This document shows positions 3,316 through 9,097 of a DNA stretch of 64,000 bases, piece after piece. Every line of letters begins with the position of its first letter. Position 1 is the first letter of the stretch. The DNA lies in contig NC_011832.1 in the NCBI RefSeq assembly GCF_000021965.1, forward strand, positions 1,054,001 through 1,118,000, given 5' to 3'. The notes under the pieces were generated by a model. It did not search any database and was not told the origin of the DNA. It saw nothing but the letters and a program-made list of their open reading frames with translations. Origin of the DNA: Methanosphaerula palustris E1-9c (lineage in GTDB: Archaea > Halobacteriota > Methanomicrobia > Methanomicrobiales > Methanospirillaceae). A program made the translations under genes and the position numbers.

Positions 3316-3488
3316 TCATTTCTGGCTGGGACTGTACCCGGCAGATTCCCCTTTTTTGCGCGCACCACTGCTTCGATAAGAGAGTCGATGAGGTGCTTCA
3401 CATAAGAAACGCCCCTACAGGCTGATGACTTCAACAGGATCAGAAGATTGAATCATAAGAAAGGAGAGGATCATCCTCTCCATACCGT
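3316..3488. other. convergent intergenic region
   Basis: This stretch of 173 bases lies between the deacetylase gene (+) and the antiporter gene (-). It contains short T-runs (for example CCTTTTTTGC near 3352) that could end transcription of the + gene. No RNA gene or small coding frame could be supported. Confidence 0.4.
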
Positions 3489-4649
3489 TTACTCCTGATG
3501 CCCGGCGCGGAGGGTATGACGGCCTACCGTCACATCCTCCGAATGGACCGGGGCGAACCATTTCTGGGCGATGAAGGTCGGGATCACCGCACTGGCGATC
3601 ACCACACCGATCAACAGCGAGTACTGCCCTGCATCGATGTACCCCATCGAGAGACCGAAGACGCTGGCGATCGTTCCGAAGGTCAGCCCTGTCGACATCA
3701 GCAGCGTCGTATACATGCTGCCGCCAGGGATGTACTTCCGGGCGAGCAGATAGACGCCGGCGAACTTCATCGCGATCTTGATCACCAGCAACGCAACGAA
3801 GAGTCCGATCGCTCCTGTGATCTGTGCGATCGAGACGTTCATTCCCCCGACGATAAAGAAGATCGGGGTGATCACGGCATAGGCGATCGTCCGCAGTCGC
3901 AGCGCGATCCCGCGGTCGACCAGCGATCGTCCCATGAAGAGGCCGAGCAGGAATGTCGGGAGCACCGCCTGGCCGTCTCCGATGCCTGCGAAGTAGATGA
4001 AGATCAGCAGGAGGAGGAAGACAAACTTCACTTCAGGTTCGACGACGGCCGCCCTGATACGGGGATTATCGAAGAGCAGATGTGAGTATCTGGTTGCCAG
4101 GGCGATCACCAGAGCTGAGACGCCGATGAAGGCCGCGGTGTACACGGTCGGACGTATGAAGAGGACGCTCAATGCGATGGCCGTGCCCATGTCGGTGAAG
4201 AAGGTCGCGGCCATGATCAGTTTGCCGATCTCTGTTTTGCAGAGGCCGGTCTCGACCAGCACCGAATAGACCACGGCCAGCGACGTTGTCGAGAGGGCCG
4301 TGCCGGCGATCATCGAGGCGGAGAGACTCCAGCCGACGACGAAGTAGGTGTAGGTTCCGACGCCGAGGAATGGAACTACAAACGAGAAGAGACCGATCAG
4401 AAAACTTCCTTTAAAGTTGGCCCTCATCAGGTCGGTGTCGATCTCGGTGCCAGCCAGGAAGGTCAGGATGATACCGCCAAGGGTCGCGATATAGGTCATC
4501 CAGGGTTCTGTATGGATCAGATTCAGGTTGCCGGAGACGGCCCCGAGCAGGATCTCGATGATTGCAACCGAGAAGCCGAGGCGGATCGAGATGAGGCTTG
4601 CGAGAAAGATCACGAGCCCCAACAGTAGGGGAACAATGTCTGTTTGCAT
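3489..4649 (-). CDS. CPA2-family cation:proton antiporter, fluoride-riboswitch controlled
   Basis: This 386-residue protein is almost entirely membrane segments (about 11-12) and matches the membrane part of the CPA2 (KefB/NapA-like) Na+/H+ or K+/H+ antiporters. FLAGTEIDTDLM near residue 65 and TALSTTSLAVVYSVLVETGL near residue 120 are typical of this fold. There is no C-terminal TrkA-N/RCK domain, so it is the short, non-KTN type. The start codon at 4649 is preceded by GGAGTCATCAC, whose GGAG is a normal SD. The leader carries two fluoride aptamers, and CPA2 antiporters are one of the gene classes known to be governed by fluoride riboswitches. A role in fluoride tolerance or in pH/ion balance during fluoride stress is therefore likely, although no direct F- transport can be read from the sequence. 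Confidence 0.88.
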   Translation of the reverse strand: MQTDIVPLLLGLVIFLASLISIRLGFSVAIIEILLGAVSGNLNLIHTEPWMTYIATLGGIILTFLAGTEIDTDLMRANFKGSFLIGLFSFVVPFLGVGTYTYFVVGWSLSASMIAGTALSTTSLAVVYSVLVETGLCKTEIGKLIMAATFFTDMGTAIALSVLFIRPTVYTAAFIGVSALVIALATRYSHLLFDNPRIRAAVVEPEVKFVFLLLLIFIYFAGIGDGQAVLPTFLLGLFMGRSLVDRGIALRLRTIAYAVITPIFFIVGGMNVSIAQITGAIGLFVALLVIKIAMKFAGVYLLARKYIPGGSMYTTLLMSTGLTFGTIASVFGLSMGYIDAGQYSLLIGVVIASAVIPTFIAQKWFAPVHSEDVTVGRHTLRAGHQE

Positions 4650-4671
4650 GTGATGACTCCATGGTGTGATG

Positions 4672-4727
4672 GATAGGGGTCATCAGCGAAGAAACGCGGT
4701 TTATTGTGGGTGAACCCCATCACCCTG
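4672..4727 (-). promoter_or_regulatory. fluoride riboswitch, promoter-distal copy next to the gene (crcB motif)
   Basis: Read on the minus strand, the core is GGGTGATGGGGTTCACCC, then AATAAACCGC, a short GCG/CGC hairpin and GCTGATGACCCCTAT. This matches the crcB/fluoride aptamer: stem 1 is GGGTG with CACCC, stem 2 is GCG with CGC, and the loop GGGGTT can pair with GACCCC to form the required pseudoknot. The conserved AACCGC...GCTGATGA block is intact. It ends about 20 bases before the antiporter start codon. The pseudoknot strand TGATGACCCC is complementary (9 of 10) to GGAGTCATCA, which contains the SD, suggesting translational control. Confidence 0.92.
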
Positions 4728-4853
4728 ACGAAGACGTCGTATCTGGTTCACGTCCGGATCTTCAACGTTTTACTTTGCATTGGTAGAGATCCTGATAGTG
4801 AACTATGATGATATGAGGGGGGTGTAGTCCCTCATATTCGATTCAGAGAGATT

Positions 4854-4910
4854 AGTAGGAGTCATCAGCTCGTACACGAGCGGTTAATTGAGGTGGACCC
4901 CATCACCTCA
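4854..4910 (-). promoter_or_regulatory. fluoride riboswitch, second (upstream) copy in tandem
   Basis: On the minus strand the core is GAGGTGATGGGGTCCACCTC, then AATTAACCGC, hairpin GCTCG-TGTA-CGAGC and GCTGATGACTCCTACT, almost a textbook crcB-motif sequence. Stem 1 has six pairs, stem 2 five, and the loop GGGGTC pairs with GACTCC as the pseudoknot. It lies about 130 bases upstream of the first aptamer in the same leader. Its 3' strand TGATGACTCC is an exact 10-base complement of GGAGTCATCA at the antiporter SD. Just upstream the 12-base word ATGAGGTGATGG occurs twice in a row, offering a second copy of the stem-1 strand. No separate gene lies between the two aptamers. Confidence 0.93.
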
Positions 4911-5071
4911 TCCATCACCTCATAATTGGATGATGTGATTACCTGTTCCACCTAAATATTATTTAATGATTTCGTTTATCGATCTCTCCGACACGGGGTG
5001 AGGTTCGCCTTAACATATCAGGAAGAATGCTGGCAGAGCACAATCGTTTCTCTAATTGGATAAAAAAGGGG

Positions 5072-6883: not shown

Positions 6884-7034
6884 GGGGTCGTGGCCTAGTC
6901 CGGAATGGCGACGGGCTCCAGCGGTCTTGTGCGTGTGATGAACAATGGGTCTGCTGAATTGGTGATGACCCGTTGGAGCTCTGACGCATATCGGAGAGAC
7001 CCGTCGATCGTGAGTTCAAATCTCACCGACCCCA
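6884..7034 (+). tRNA. tRNA-Trp (CCA) with an intron
   Basis: Acceptor strands GGGGTCG (6884-6890) and CGACCCC (7027-7033) pair perfectly with discriminator A at 7034. The D stem is GCC/GGC, the anticodon stem ACGGG (6911-6915) with CCCGT (7000-7004), and the T arm GTGAG-TTCAAAT-CTCAC. The anticodon CCA is at 6918-6920, so the tRNA reads UGG (Trp). The 77-base intron lies after position 37, the standard place for archaeal tRNA-Trp. The 3' CCA is not encoded. T-rich sequence follows directly and should end transcription. Confidence 0.95.
6922..6998 (+). ncRNA. tRNA-Trp intron forming a C/D-box 2'-O-methylation guide RNA
   Basis: The intron carries box C GTGATGA (6934-6940), box D' CTGA (6954-6957), box C' GTGATGA (6962-6968) and box D CTGA (6981-6984), in the correct order. 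The guide before box D, CCGTTGGAGC, pairs with GCTCCAGCGG across the 5' exon-intron junction, including the anticodon. The guide before D', ATGGGTCT, pairs with AGACCCGT at the 3' junction. This fits the known euryarchaeal arrangement in which the pre-tRNA-Trp intron directs methylation at C34 and U39. Confidence 0.9.
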
Positions 7035-7257: not shown

Positions 7258-7584
7258 ATGGCGATACCCAGGGAGATCAGCGAACAGCTCTGTGCTGGCG
7301 GCGGGGTGGATGGACTACAGCGGCAGATTCCGTCGAACGAGGATCTCTCGTTCCAGGCCCGATTTCATCATGCCCTCTCCGATCCGGTTCGGTTGAAGAT
7401 CCTCTATGCCCTGCAGACACAGCCGCTCTGTGTCTGTGTGATCAAGGAGATCATCTCTATTGCAGACTCTCGTCTCTCCTATCATCTGAACGTGCTGAAG
7501 ACGGCCGGGTTGATCAGCGGGGCGCAGCAGGGGAACTGGATCATCTATACCATCACCGATTTCGGGAGATCCGGGCTCAGGTGA
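7258..7584 (+). CDS. ArsR/SmtB-family transcriptional regulator beside hgcAB
   Basis: This 108-residue winged-helix repressor has the ArsR core HHALSDPVRLKILYALQ at about residue 38, followed by QPLCVCVIKEI, where the CVC pair sits in the place of the ELCVCDL arsenic/antimony site of ArsR. The recognition helix is SRLSYHLNVLKTAGL and the wing GAQQGNWIIYTI. Such proteins leave DNA when thiol-loving metal(loid)s bind. The gene is directly followed by hgcA with an operator-like palindrome in the 53-base gap. ArsR-like genes next to hgcAB are known in several mercury methylators. It may control hgcAB in response to As(III), Hg(II) or a similar ion; the ligand is inferred. Confidence 0.9.
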   Translation: MAIPREISEQLCAGGGVDGLQRQIPSNEDLSFQARFHHALSDPVRLKILYALQTQPLCVCVIKEIISIADSRLSYHLNVLKTAGLISGAQQGNWIIYTITDFGRSGLR

Positions 7585-7605
7585 GATCTGGGTATAACAG
7601 AAAGT

Positions 7606-7621
7606 TTCAAATTATTTTGAA
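7606..7621 (+). promoter_or_regulatory. ArsR-type operator before hgcA
   Basis: TTCAAATTATTTTGAA is an inverted repeat with TTCAAA and TTTGAA arms, very like the TCAAATAAATATTTGA operators of ArsR/CadC repressors. It begins 21 bases after the arsR stop and ends 16 bases before the hgcA ATG. TATAAC at 7592 may be the TATA element, so the operator would cover the transcription start. Confidence 0.6.
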
Positions 7622-7637
7622 TTGATCACTCTTCTGT

Positions 7638-8756
7638 ATGTCAGTGAAGTACGAGAGTGTGACCGATCGATCTGAACCCGTTGCAGGGTCATGCACCTGT
7701 GGCAGTACCGGGGCAGATCTGTCGACACCATCAGAGATGGGATGCTGCTCCACCGCCTCTGTTCCCCTGGGATCACCCTGCAGCCCGTCTGCGATGATGC
7801 AGACCACCTCCAGACTCTCTTCTGCAGACCGACGTGACCATCTGCTCGCACGGCTGGGCGTCGATCGCATGGGTCACCTGGTCAGACCCGGCCTGTATGA
7901 ACTCGGCCATCCCGATCGGACCGCTCAGGTGATCGTGACCGCGAACTATACACTCACCTTCGATGCGGTCCGTTCGGCTCTCGATGGGATCGATGTCTAC
8001 CTGCTCGTCCTCGATACCTATGGAGTCAATGTCTGGTGTGCCGCCGGGAAGGGGACATTCGGGACTGATGAACTGGTCCGCCGGATCGAAGCGACCGGTC
8101 TCGCCGGGGTCGTGGATCACCGCCGGGTCATCCTCCCGCAGTTCGGGGCACCTGGTGTCTCTGCGCCTGAAGTGGTCAGGCGGTCGGACTTCCGGGTGGA
8201 GTGGGGGCCGGTCAGAGCCAGGGATCTGCCGGCGTACCTGGCAAATCATACGGCCACACCTGAGATGCGGCAGGTCCGGTTCCCCCTCCGGGACCGGCTT
8301 GTGCTCATCCCGGTCGATCTCCGTTCTATCCTGCTGATGATGGTGGCCGGAGCCGTGGTGCTCTGGCTGCTGGCCGGCCTGGGTACAGCACGGGACCTGG
8401 TGGTTGCCATGCTCACAGGCACCATCCTCTTCCCGATCCTGCTTCCATATCTCCCGACCAGGGATTTCACTACCAGGGGATACCTCCTTGGGATGCTGGT
8501 GATGATCCCGTCCGTTCTCCTCGATCTTTCACAGGGCGGGGGATGGCTGGTGGAAGCTGGCAGAGTCGTCGTCGACCTGACCGTCTTCCCGGCGATAACA
8601 GCATACCTCGCGCTCCTCTTCACTGGTGCGACCCCGTTCACCTCCCGGACCGGGGTGCGGCGTGAGATCTTCAGGTACATCCGTCCGCTGGCAGGGATTG
8701 CGGTTGTGGGGATTGTAACCGCCGTGGCACTTCGTCTGGTCACCGGAGGGGTCTGA
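7638..8756 (+). CDS. hgcA: mercury methylation corrinoid protein HgcA
   Basis: This 372-residue protein contains the diagnostic cap-helix motif NVWCAAGK at residues 131-138, whose Cys134 would ligate cobalt in the corrinoid. A corrinoid-binding domain spans about residues 80-215 and is followed by about five membrane segments from about residue 228 to the end. This domain order is unique to HgcA, which transfers a methyl group to Hg(II). The N-terminal 55 residues are poorly conserved in type and rich in Cys (CTCG, GCC, PC), which could bind metal. hgcB overlaps the last base. Both lie downstream of an ArsR-type gene. Methanomicrobiales are known to include Hg methylators, so an intact gene is credible. 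Confidence 0.97.
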   Translation: MSVKYESVTDRSEPVAGSCTCGSTGADLSTPSEMGCCSTASVPLGSPCSPSAMMQTTSRLSSADRRDHLLARLGVDRMGHLVRPGLYELGHPDRTAQVIVTANYTLTFDAVRSALDGIDVYLLVLDTYGVNVWCAAGKGTFGTDELVRRIEATGLAGVVDHRRVILPQFGAPGVSAPEVVRRSDFRVEWGPVRARDLPAYLANHTATPEMRQVRFPLRDRLVLIPVDLRSILLMMVAGAVVLWLLAGLGTARDLVVAMLTGTILFPILLPYLPTRDFTTRGYLLGMLVMIPSVLLDLSQGGGWLVEAGRVVVDLTVFPAITAYLALLFTGATPFTSRTGVRREIFRYIRPLAGIAVVGIVTAVALRLVTGGV

Positions 8757-9097
8757 TGATCTTCGACTCGTACAGCGAGAACACGCTCGCCTATGACTCG
8801 GAGCAGTGTGTCAACTGCGGGGCCTGTTCGACGGTCTGTCCGCACCGGGTCTTCACTCCGGGGAAAAAGGCTGCAATACTGACCACGCCTGCGGCCTGTA
8901 TGGAGTGCGGGGCCTGTCAGGTGAACTGTCCGACCGGTGCGATCACCGTCGAGAGCGGTGTCGGGTGTGCTTCCGCGCTGATCCGCGTCGCCCTGACCGG
9001 CAAAGGGGAGGAGACCTGCGACTGCTGTAGTGAACGGGAGCTGGCAGATGAGCGTTCATACTGTGAAGGTGGGTGCAGTGAGACCGGCTGTCGGTGA
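8756..9097 (+). CDS. hgcB: HgcB, 2[4Fe-4S] ferredoxin partner of HgcA
   Basis: This 113-residue ferredoxin has two clusters, CVNCGACSTVCPH (about residues 18-30) and CMECGACQVNCPT (about 48-60), followed by the extended C-terminal region of HgcB. It would reduce the HgcA corrinoid and may hand over Hg(II) with thiols. Typical HgcB ends in a vicinal Cys pair. Here the tail is unusually Cys-rich (CDCC, then single Cys in SYC, GGC and TGC), giving six tail cysteines. The ATG overlaps the hgcA stop as ATGATG/TGATG, so the two are translationally coupled. Confidence 0.96.
   Translation: MIFDSYSENTLAYDSEQCVNCGACSTVCPHRVFTPGKKAAILTTPAACMECGACQVNCPTGAITVESGVGCASALIRVALTGKGEETCDCCSERELADERSYCEGGCSETGCR

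Follow-up and report, generated by a model that had tools for sequence, protein, structure and literature searches.

The leader of a CPA2-type antiporter gene of Methanosphaerula palustris E1-9c contains two bona fide fluoride aptamers, confirmed by covariance model and by covariation and predicted to bind fluoride. We propose, with a probability of roughly 0.55, that they form a homotypic tandem fluoride riboswitch, a translational ON switch in which two locks would act on one Shine-Dalgarno sequence. Each part of this arrangement is known; a homotypic fluoride tandem that recurs in Methanomicrobia, apparently with one expression platform, is at odds with the published inventory. The window is the whole stretch of 64,000 nucleotides analysed (NC_011832.1, positions 1,054,001 to 1,118,000); coordinates below refer to it, on the minus strand unless otherwise indicated.

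Two fluoride aptamers in one leader

A preliminary description had reported two crcB-motif cores with their pseudoknots on the minus strand of one leader, about 130 bases apart, and had proposed to check both segments with the Rfam fluoride covariance model (RF01734). Both exceed the gathering score of this model (34 bits), with 57.6 bits (E 2.4e-13) for the upstream copy, aptamer 1 (4849-4916), and 44.4 bits (E 4.7e-9) for the downstream copy, aptamer 2 (4667-4733). The two cores were thus recovered, and only their spacing had to be corrected, the matches being separated by 115 nt within an overall extent of 4667-4916. A home-made archaeal fluoride aptamer model (R1) gave 50.6 and 46.4 bits, respectively. 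No other RF01734 match was found in the 2,922,917-bp single-contig genome. As in the tandem definition of Sherlock et al. (2022), the two copies lie on the same strand, are no more than 300 nt apart and have no gene between them, the only intervening frame being one of 20 codons.

Both copies possess P1, the AACCGC...GCTGATGA core and a pseudoknot joining the loop to the 3' strand. In aptamer 1, the loop strand GGGGU (4897-4901) pairs with ACUCC (4858-4862), including one G-U pair, and in aptamer 2 the same loop strand (4714-4718) pairs with ACCCC (4676-4680) by Watson-Crick pairs only. The loop AUG and the 3' UGAUGA, core nucleotides that have a role at the fluoride-Mg site, are present in both copies and occupy invariant or nearly invariant columns in alignment A1. 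When 65 Methanomicrobial aptamers, including the window pair, were aligned, the pseudoknot was paired in 100% of the cells and P1 in 99%, with double-sided changes; in controls in which the partners were shifted by 1-3 columns, the whole structure was only 29-72% paired. Over the aligned core, the window copies share about 70% identity, which, in a single-contig genome, makes an assembly duplication unlikely. Recent tandem duplication was rejected as well, as in most tandems the copies are no more similar than unrelated aptamers.

The antiporter gene and its link to fluoride

The gene (3489-4649) encodes a protein of 386 aa that matches PF00999 (Na_H_Exchanger, E 1.9e-33) and has a NapA fold, and that scores 100 bits with the CPA2 family model TIGR00932, short of the 238-bit cut-off. 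Foldseek analysis of the predicted structure (pLDDT 89) identified NapA (4bwz/5bz2) as the best match, with a TM-score of 0.80 for 5bz2, and NapA is the best match by sequence as well. In the ion-site motif FFTDMG, the Asp-Asp pair that accompanies the TM10 lysine in electrogenic CPA2 antiporters (NapA/NhaA type) is replaced by Thr-Asp, while the lysine is kept. According to a published model (PMC6181914), such a site predicts electroneutral exchange.

The preliminary description had suggested a role for this gene in fluoride tolerance, and its clade is linked to fluoride. We collected relatives from 77 loci in many bacterial and archaeal groups, nearly all with 43-68% identity. A fluoride aptamer is present upstream in 53 of the 67 for which at least 300 nt of upstream sequence were available, usually immediately before the gene and in one copy only. 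In this clade, the aptamer accompanies nearly every T-D protein and is mostly missing with T-N or C-D: T-D was found in 49 of 53 relatives with an aptamer and in 4 of the 14 that have none (Fisher p 3e-6). Since a 2024 review places Na+/H+ antiporters second in frequency to exporters among the genes linked to fluoride riboswitches, the link between gene and riboswitch, also noted for some antiporters in the preliminary description, is of a known kind. Within Methanomicrobia, the gene was detected in only 2 of 232 genomes (cut-off E 1e-80), both of which carry the tandem.

Searches of the genome for CrcB (PF02537) and CLC (PF00654) revealed neither at the search threshold, at which most control genomes have them. 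The usual fluoride exporters therefore seem to be absent. We infer that the antiporter protects the cell from fluoride or from fluoride-caused acid stress, and it may be the only fluoride-resistance transporter of this genome. This result points to a CPA2 clade as a main fluoride defence where CrcB and CLC are missing.

Three other features of the neighbourhood were recorded. A degenerate third fluoride aptamer (3375-3441, plus strand; 23.6 bits with R1 and 15.1 bits, below cut-off, with RF01734) sits between a converging deacetylase gene and the 3' end of the antiporter gene. The tRNA-Trp gene (6884-7034, plus strand) has an intron that holds the box C/D guide RNA sR3. At 7258-9097 (plus strand), a gene for an ArsR-type regulator is followed by the mercury-methylation genes hgcA and hgcB, with NCBIfam scores above cut-off.

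One ribosome site and no sign of a second platform

Aptamer 2 ends 17 nt before the antiporter start codon (4647-4649), and the Shine-Dalgarno region GGAGUCAUCA (4651-4660) lies between them. By its sequence, this region is a predicted target of the 3' strands of both aptamers. The linker (4734-4848) is structured, with a hairpin (4811-4837) and a long irregular helix (about 4746-4803), and has a fold z-score of -2.7. No T-run longer than 3 nt occurs in the leader, and no T residues follow the hairpin. The 20-codon frame (4865-4806) that begins within aptamer 1 has no Shine-Dalgarno sequence. The leader has a single Shine-Dalgarno sequence, whereas in a pseudo-cooperative tandem every aptamer would have its own terminator or ribosome site. 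A plasmid search with the leader sequence gave no match.

An unsupervised motif search upstream of 72 aptamers revealed no TATA-like motif, and a matrix built from the tRNA genes of the same genome was used instead. It detected a weak site, ATTAAATA (4960-4967, 4.3 bits), and a stronger one, TTTATCCA (5057-5064, 8.4 bits), both upstream of the two aptamers, and no site exceeding 4.3 bits in the linker between them. The lack of such a site and of longer T-runs argues against a second promoter or transcription stops.

These observations bear on two alternatives. In the first, each aptamer would be a switch of its own and the two would act in series, as in tandem TPP riboswitches, aptamer 1 governing a transcription stop or a leader peptide and aptamer 2 the ribosome site of the antiporter. 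The 2022 survey discussed below (PMC9481103) usually interprets homotypic tandems in this way, and in two other tandems, L111 and L116, the first aptamer is followed by a Shine-Dalgarno sequence and a short reading frame (40 and 16 codons, respectively); the window has its 20-codon frame starting inside aptamer 1. However, this frame is devoid of a Shine-Dalgarno sequence, leaving one ribosome site to regulate, the region after aptamer 1 has no T-run over 3 nt, and no T residues come after the hairpin. With one Shine-Dalgarno, no T-run above 3 nt and no strong TATA-like site in the linker, the sequence speaks against a series of two independent switches, and we consider this alternative unlikely. 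Leader peptides as such were rejected, the L111 and L116 frames having no relatives among the fetched loci and the L111 frame no Pfam match.

In the second alternative, a promoter in the linker would produce a shorter mRNA with aptamer 2 alone, so that the window would encode two alternative leaders and no tandem. The weakness of the nearest TATA-like site above aptamer 1 would fit this idea, as would the strong TATA-like site found in the L116 linker. In the window, however, no linker site reaches 4.3 bits and the 8.4-bit site lies above both aptamers, making this arrangement very improbable.

Folding of the leader in four binding states

The leader as a whole is more stable than expected (fold z-score -4.1), and in its unbound state the 3' strand of aptamer 1 is paired with the Shine-Dalgarno region with a probability close to 1. 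This strand, UGAUGACUCC (4858-4867), belongs to the pseudoknot if the aptamer is bound and, if free, is predicted by folding to form 10 perfect pairs with the Shine-Dalgarno region, which lies 200 nt downstream; the chance of finding a 10-nt complement is about 2e-4. The 3' strand of aptamer 2, UGAUGACCCC (4676-4685), can form 9 of the 10 pairs, with one C-A mismatch, and takes over in four-state folding once aptamer 1 is bound.

We computed the cost of opening the Shine-Dalgarno region with neither, the first, the second or both aptamers bound. It amounted to 9.0, 5.8, 6.7 and 3.5 kcal/mol, respectively, in a procedure that considers nested structures only, imitates the bound state by constraints and yields energies that depend on the transcript limits assumed. 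When another sequence was substituted for the aptamer 1 strand, the contribution of this aptamer was abolished (5.0, 5.8, 3.5 and 3.5 kcal/mol), and shuffling the linkers weakened the pattern, which was still present (7.3, 6.0, 5.5 and 3.7 kcal/mol). When the transcript start was set at 5035, the unbound leader favoured the aptamer 2 strand instead, and when a short 3' end was assumed the differences in opening cost almost disappeared.

As a control, the bound state was imposed on 23 single-aptamer CPA2 leaders, and the mean opening cost dropped from 7.0 to 2.4 kcal/mol. These leaders have the same Shine-Dalgarno layout as the window: their 3' strand (UGAUGACUCC) and the Shine-Dalgarno region are directly complementary for as many as 13 nt. 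They show the ancestral plan.

Among the tandems, a crcB leader (L112) gave a pattern similar to that of the window, with opening costs of 5.1, 4.2, 3.7 and 2.0 kcal/mol for the same four states. The Shine-Dalgarno logic of the window was not clearly seen on folding of L111, the other Methanomicrobial CPA2 tandem; the pairing was not seen in L113 and L114, and L115 showed a partial effect only. A search downstream of all aptamers detected Shine-Dalgarno complements of 8-13 nt in CPA2 leaders and not for most Methanomicrobial aptamers, so that the mechanism does not extend to the class as a whole. Different fluoride tandems may thus work differently.

A model with two locks on one Shine-Dalgarno sequence

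Judged by the folding model, two aptamers acting on one Shine-Dalgarno sequence fit the leader better than independent switches in series. In the absence of fluoride, the 3' strand of aptamer 1, with that of aptamer 2 as a reserve, would cover the Shine-Dalgarno sequence and block the ribosome. Binding of fluoride-Mg would draw the 3' strand into the pseudoknot of its own aptamer. If one aptamer only were occupied, the strand of the other would take over the Shine-Dalgarno sequence, and because either free strand would be enough to cover this single site, full translation would be reached only with both aptamers occupied, as in an AND gate. Aptamer 2, with its stronger pseudoknot and weaker grip on the Shine-Dalgarno sequence, should open first, so that aptamer 1 would set the threshold. 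An AND of two identical inputs would make the off state tighter, raise the threshold and steepen the response, the last being a prediction of the model. The preliminary description had expected a steeper or two-stage response from the tandem.

Taken as a whole, the leader could be a natural two-input AND switch in which aptamers for the same ligand compete across a structured 115-nt linker for one Shine-Dalgarno sequence, an architecture unrecorded for fluoride that Methanomicrobia would use before several genes of fluoride defence and that would guard here what is possibly the sole fluoride-resistance transporter. We put forward this broader picture tentatively, at somewhat less than even odds.

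Fluoride tandems in other Methanomicrobia

The preliminary description had advised looking for the same tandem in related genomes, and this search was productive. Tandems were counted as pairs of fluoride aptamers on the same strand and less than 300 nt apart, and the counts are lower bounds, the large searches having been run with stricter filters. The 232 genomes of the same class contain at least 142 matches above the RF01734 cut-off, in at least 61 genomes and often in clusters of up to eight. The 300-nt limit leaves at least seven same-strand pairs: the window (115 nt), G160 (132 nt), G078 (51 nt), G104 (57 nt), G199 (175 nt), and G191 and G145, in which the copies touch. A model trained on Methanomicrobial aptamers added a touching pair in G162 and a weaker pair in G108. 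In the three touching tandems, the matches overlap by 9-12 nt at the model edges. By these sequence matches, fluoride tandems recur in about nine loci of Methanomicrobia. They precede CPA2 genes (window, G160), crcB (G104, G078, G108), enolase genes (G191, G162), the gene for an ABC-transporter ATPase (G199) and that for an unknown 112-aa protein (G145). Among the matches listed, no tandem was found outside Methanomicrobia in 393 genomes of the phylum (the Methanomicrobia already counted included), nor in 347 bacterial genomes (148 from the phylum of L003, Deltaproteobacteria, and 199 from that of L068, Sporomusa), in which the closest listed same-strand pair was separated by 836 nt.

The history of these tandems bears on a third alternative, namely that only one aptamer of the window works and that aptamer 1 (or 2) is a passenger, the remnant of a duplication, an insertion or a transfer, irrelevant to expression. 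Second copies do decay: before enolase genes (leaders L113, L118, L124 and L128), G191 has an intact second aptamer, G162 a weaker one, and in G185 and G188 it is ruined, a series which indicates that tandems are also lost, and the ruined plus-strand aptamer at 3375-3441 lies near the end of the very antiporter gene considered here. In contrast, both window copies retain every conserved position, P1 and the pseudoknot even though about 30% of their aligned positions differ. Furthermore, the crcB tandem has been maintained in two archaeal families, where each copy resembles its positional counterpart (identity 0.79 and 0.72) more than its neighbour (0.53-0.54), indicating that the arrangement is old and has been kept. 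A passenger aptamer is thus unlikely, and the tandem acting on one Shine-Dalgarno sequence is retained as the preferred reading.

Several other arrangements were noticed during these searches. The second crcB aptamer (L112:3162-3238, L115:12825-12898, L153:1891-1964) has an additional small hairpin (of the GGCA...UGCC type) between P1 and P2, and a variant pseudoknot. A compact tandem in L114 (5278-5613, plus strand) precedes the gene for a 112-aa protein with no Pfam or NCBIfam match, beside that for a HEAT-repeat protein. Methanomicrobia also have fluoride islands (L111, L117, L118, L121) of 4-8 aptamers in about 10-15 kb; the gap of ten divergent aptamer pairs is nearly constant, mostly 82-95 nt.

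Comparison with known systems

Fluoride riboswitches usually occur singly, as the preliminary description had stated, and the 2022 survey of tandem riboswitches (Sherlock et al., PMC9481103, Table 3) lists fluoride among the classes never found in tandem. Its data set is described as bacterial species and environmental sequence, overlapping matches were discarded as single riboswitches, and its authors ask why some classes have no tandems. In text searches of the open-access literature, we found no later natural fluoride tandem and only one engineered double construct. The archaeal cases overturn the entry of the survey for fluoride, and the natural contexts of the tandems (antiporter, CrcB channel, enolase) are available for measuring the benefit of a second identical aptamer. 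The small size and well-understood structure of the fluoride aptamer would allow a clean test of sharpening by a homotypic tandem with one platform.

The window aptamers share with the fluoride riboswitch RF01734 their sequence, P1, P2, the pseudoknot and a position in the leader of a fluoride-linked gene, but that riboswitch is known as a single aptamer and two are present here. The cooperative tandem glycine riboswitch likewise has two aptamers for one ligand, and the leader would share with it the use of a single expression platform; in contrast to it, the aptamers here have no known contact and, at a distance of 115 nt, could cooperate only by competition for the Shine-Dalgarno sequence. 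The pseudo-cooperative tandems of TPP, SAM-I and Li+-I riboswitches are likewise homotypic within one leader, with a sharper response expected, but they have a platform for each riboswitch, whereas the window shows only one. The single-aptamer CPA2 riboswitches of other phyla (L018, L031, L064) belong to the same gene clade and have a 3' strand that complements the Shine-Dalgarno sequence, yet their one aptamer lies shortly before that sequence, with no second copy. The engineered double riboswitch (PMC8814607), which showed strong repression and was induced at 62 mM fluoride, offers a parallel in its two stacked fluoride riboswitches before one reporter, its tight off state and its induction at high fluoride, although it is artificial, was assembled from two betaproteobacterial riboswitches and operates in bacteria. 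Finally, the antiporter resembles NapA (4bwz, a CPA2 Na+/H+ antiporter) in its fold (TM 0.68-0.80) and conserved lysine, and differs from it in that the first aspartate of the D-D pair is a threonine.
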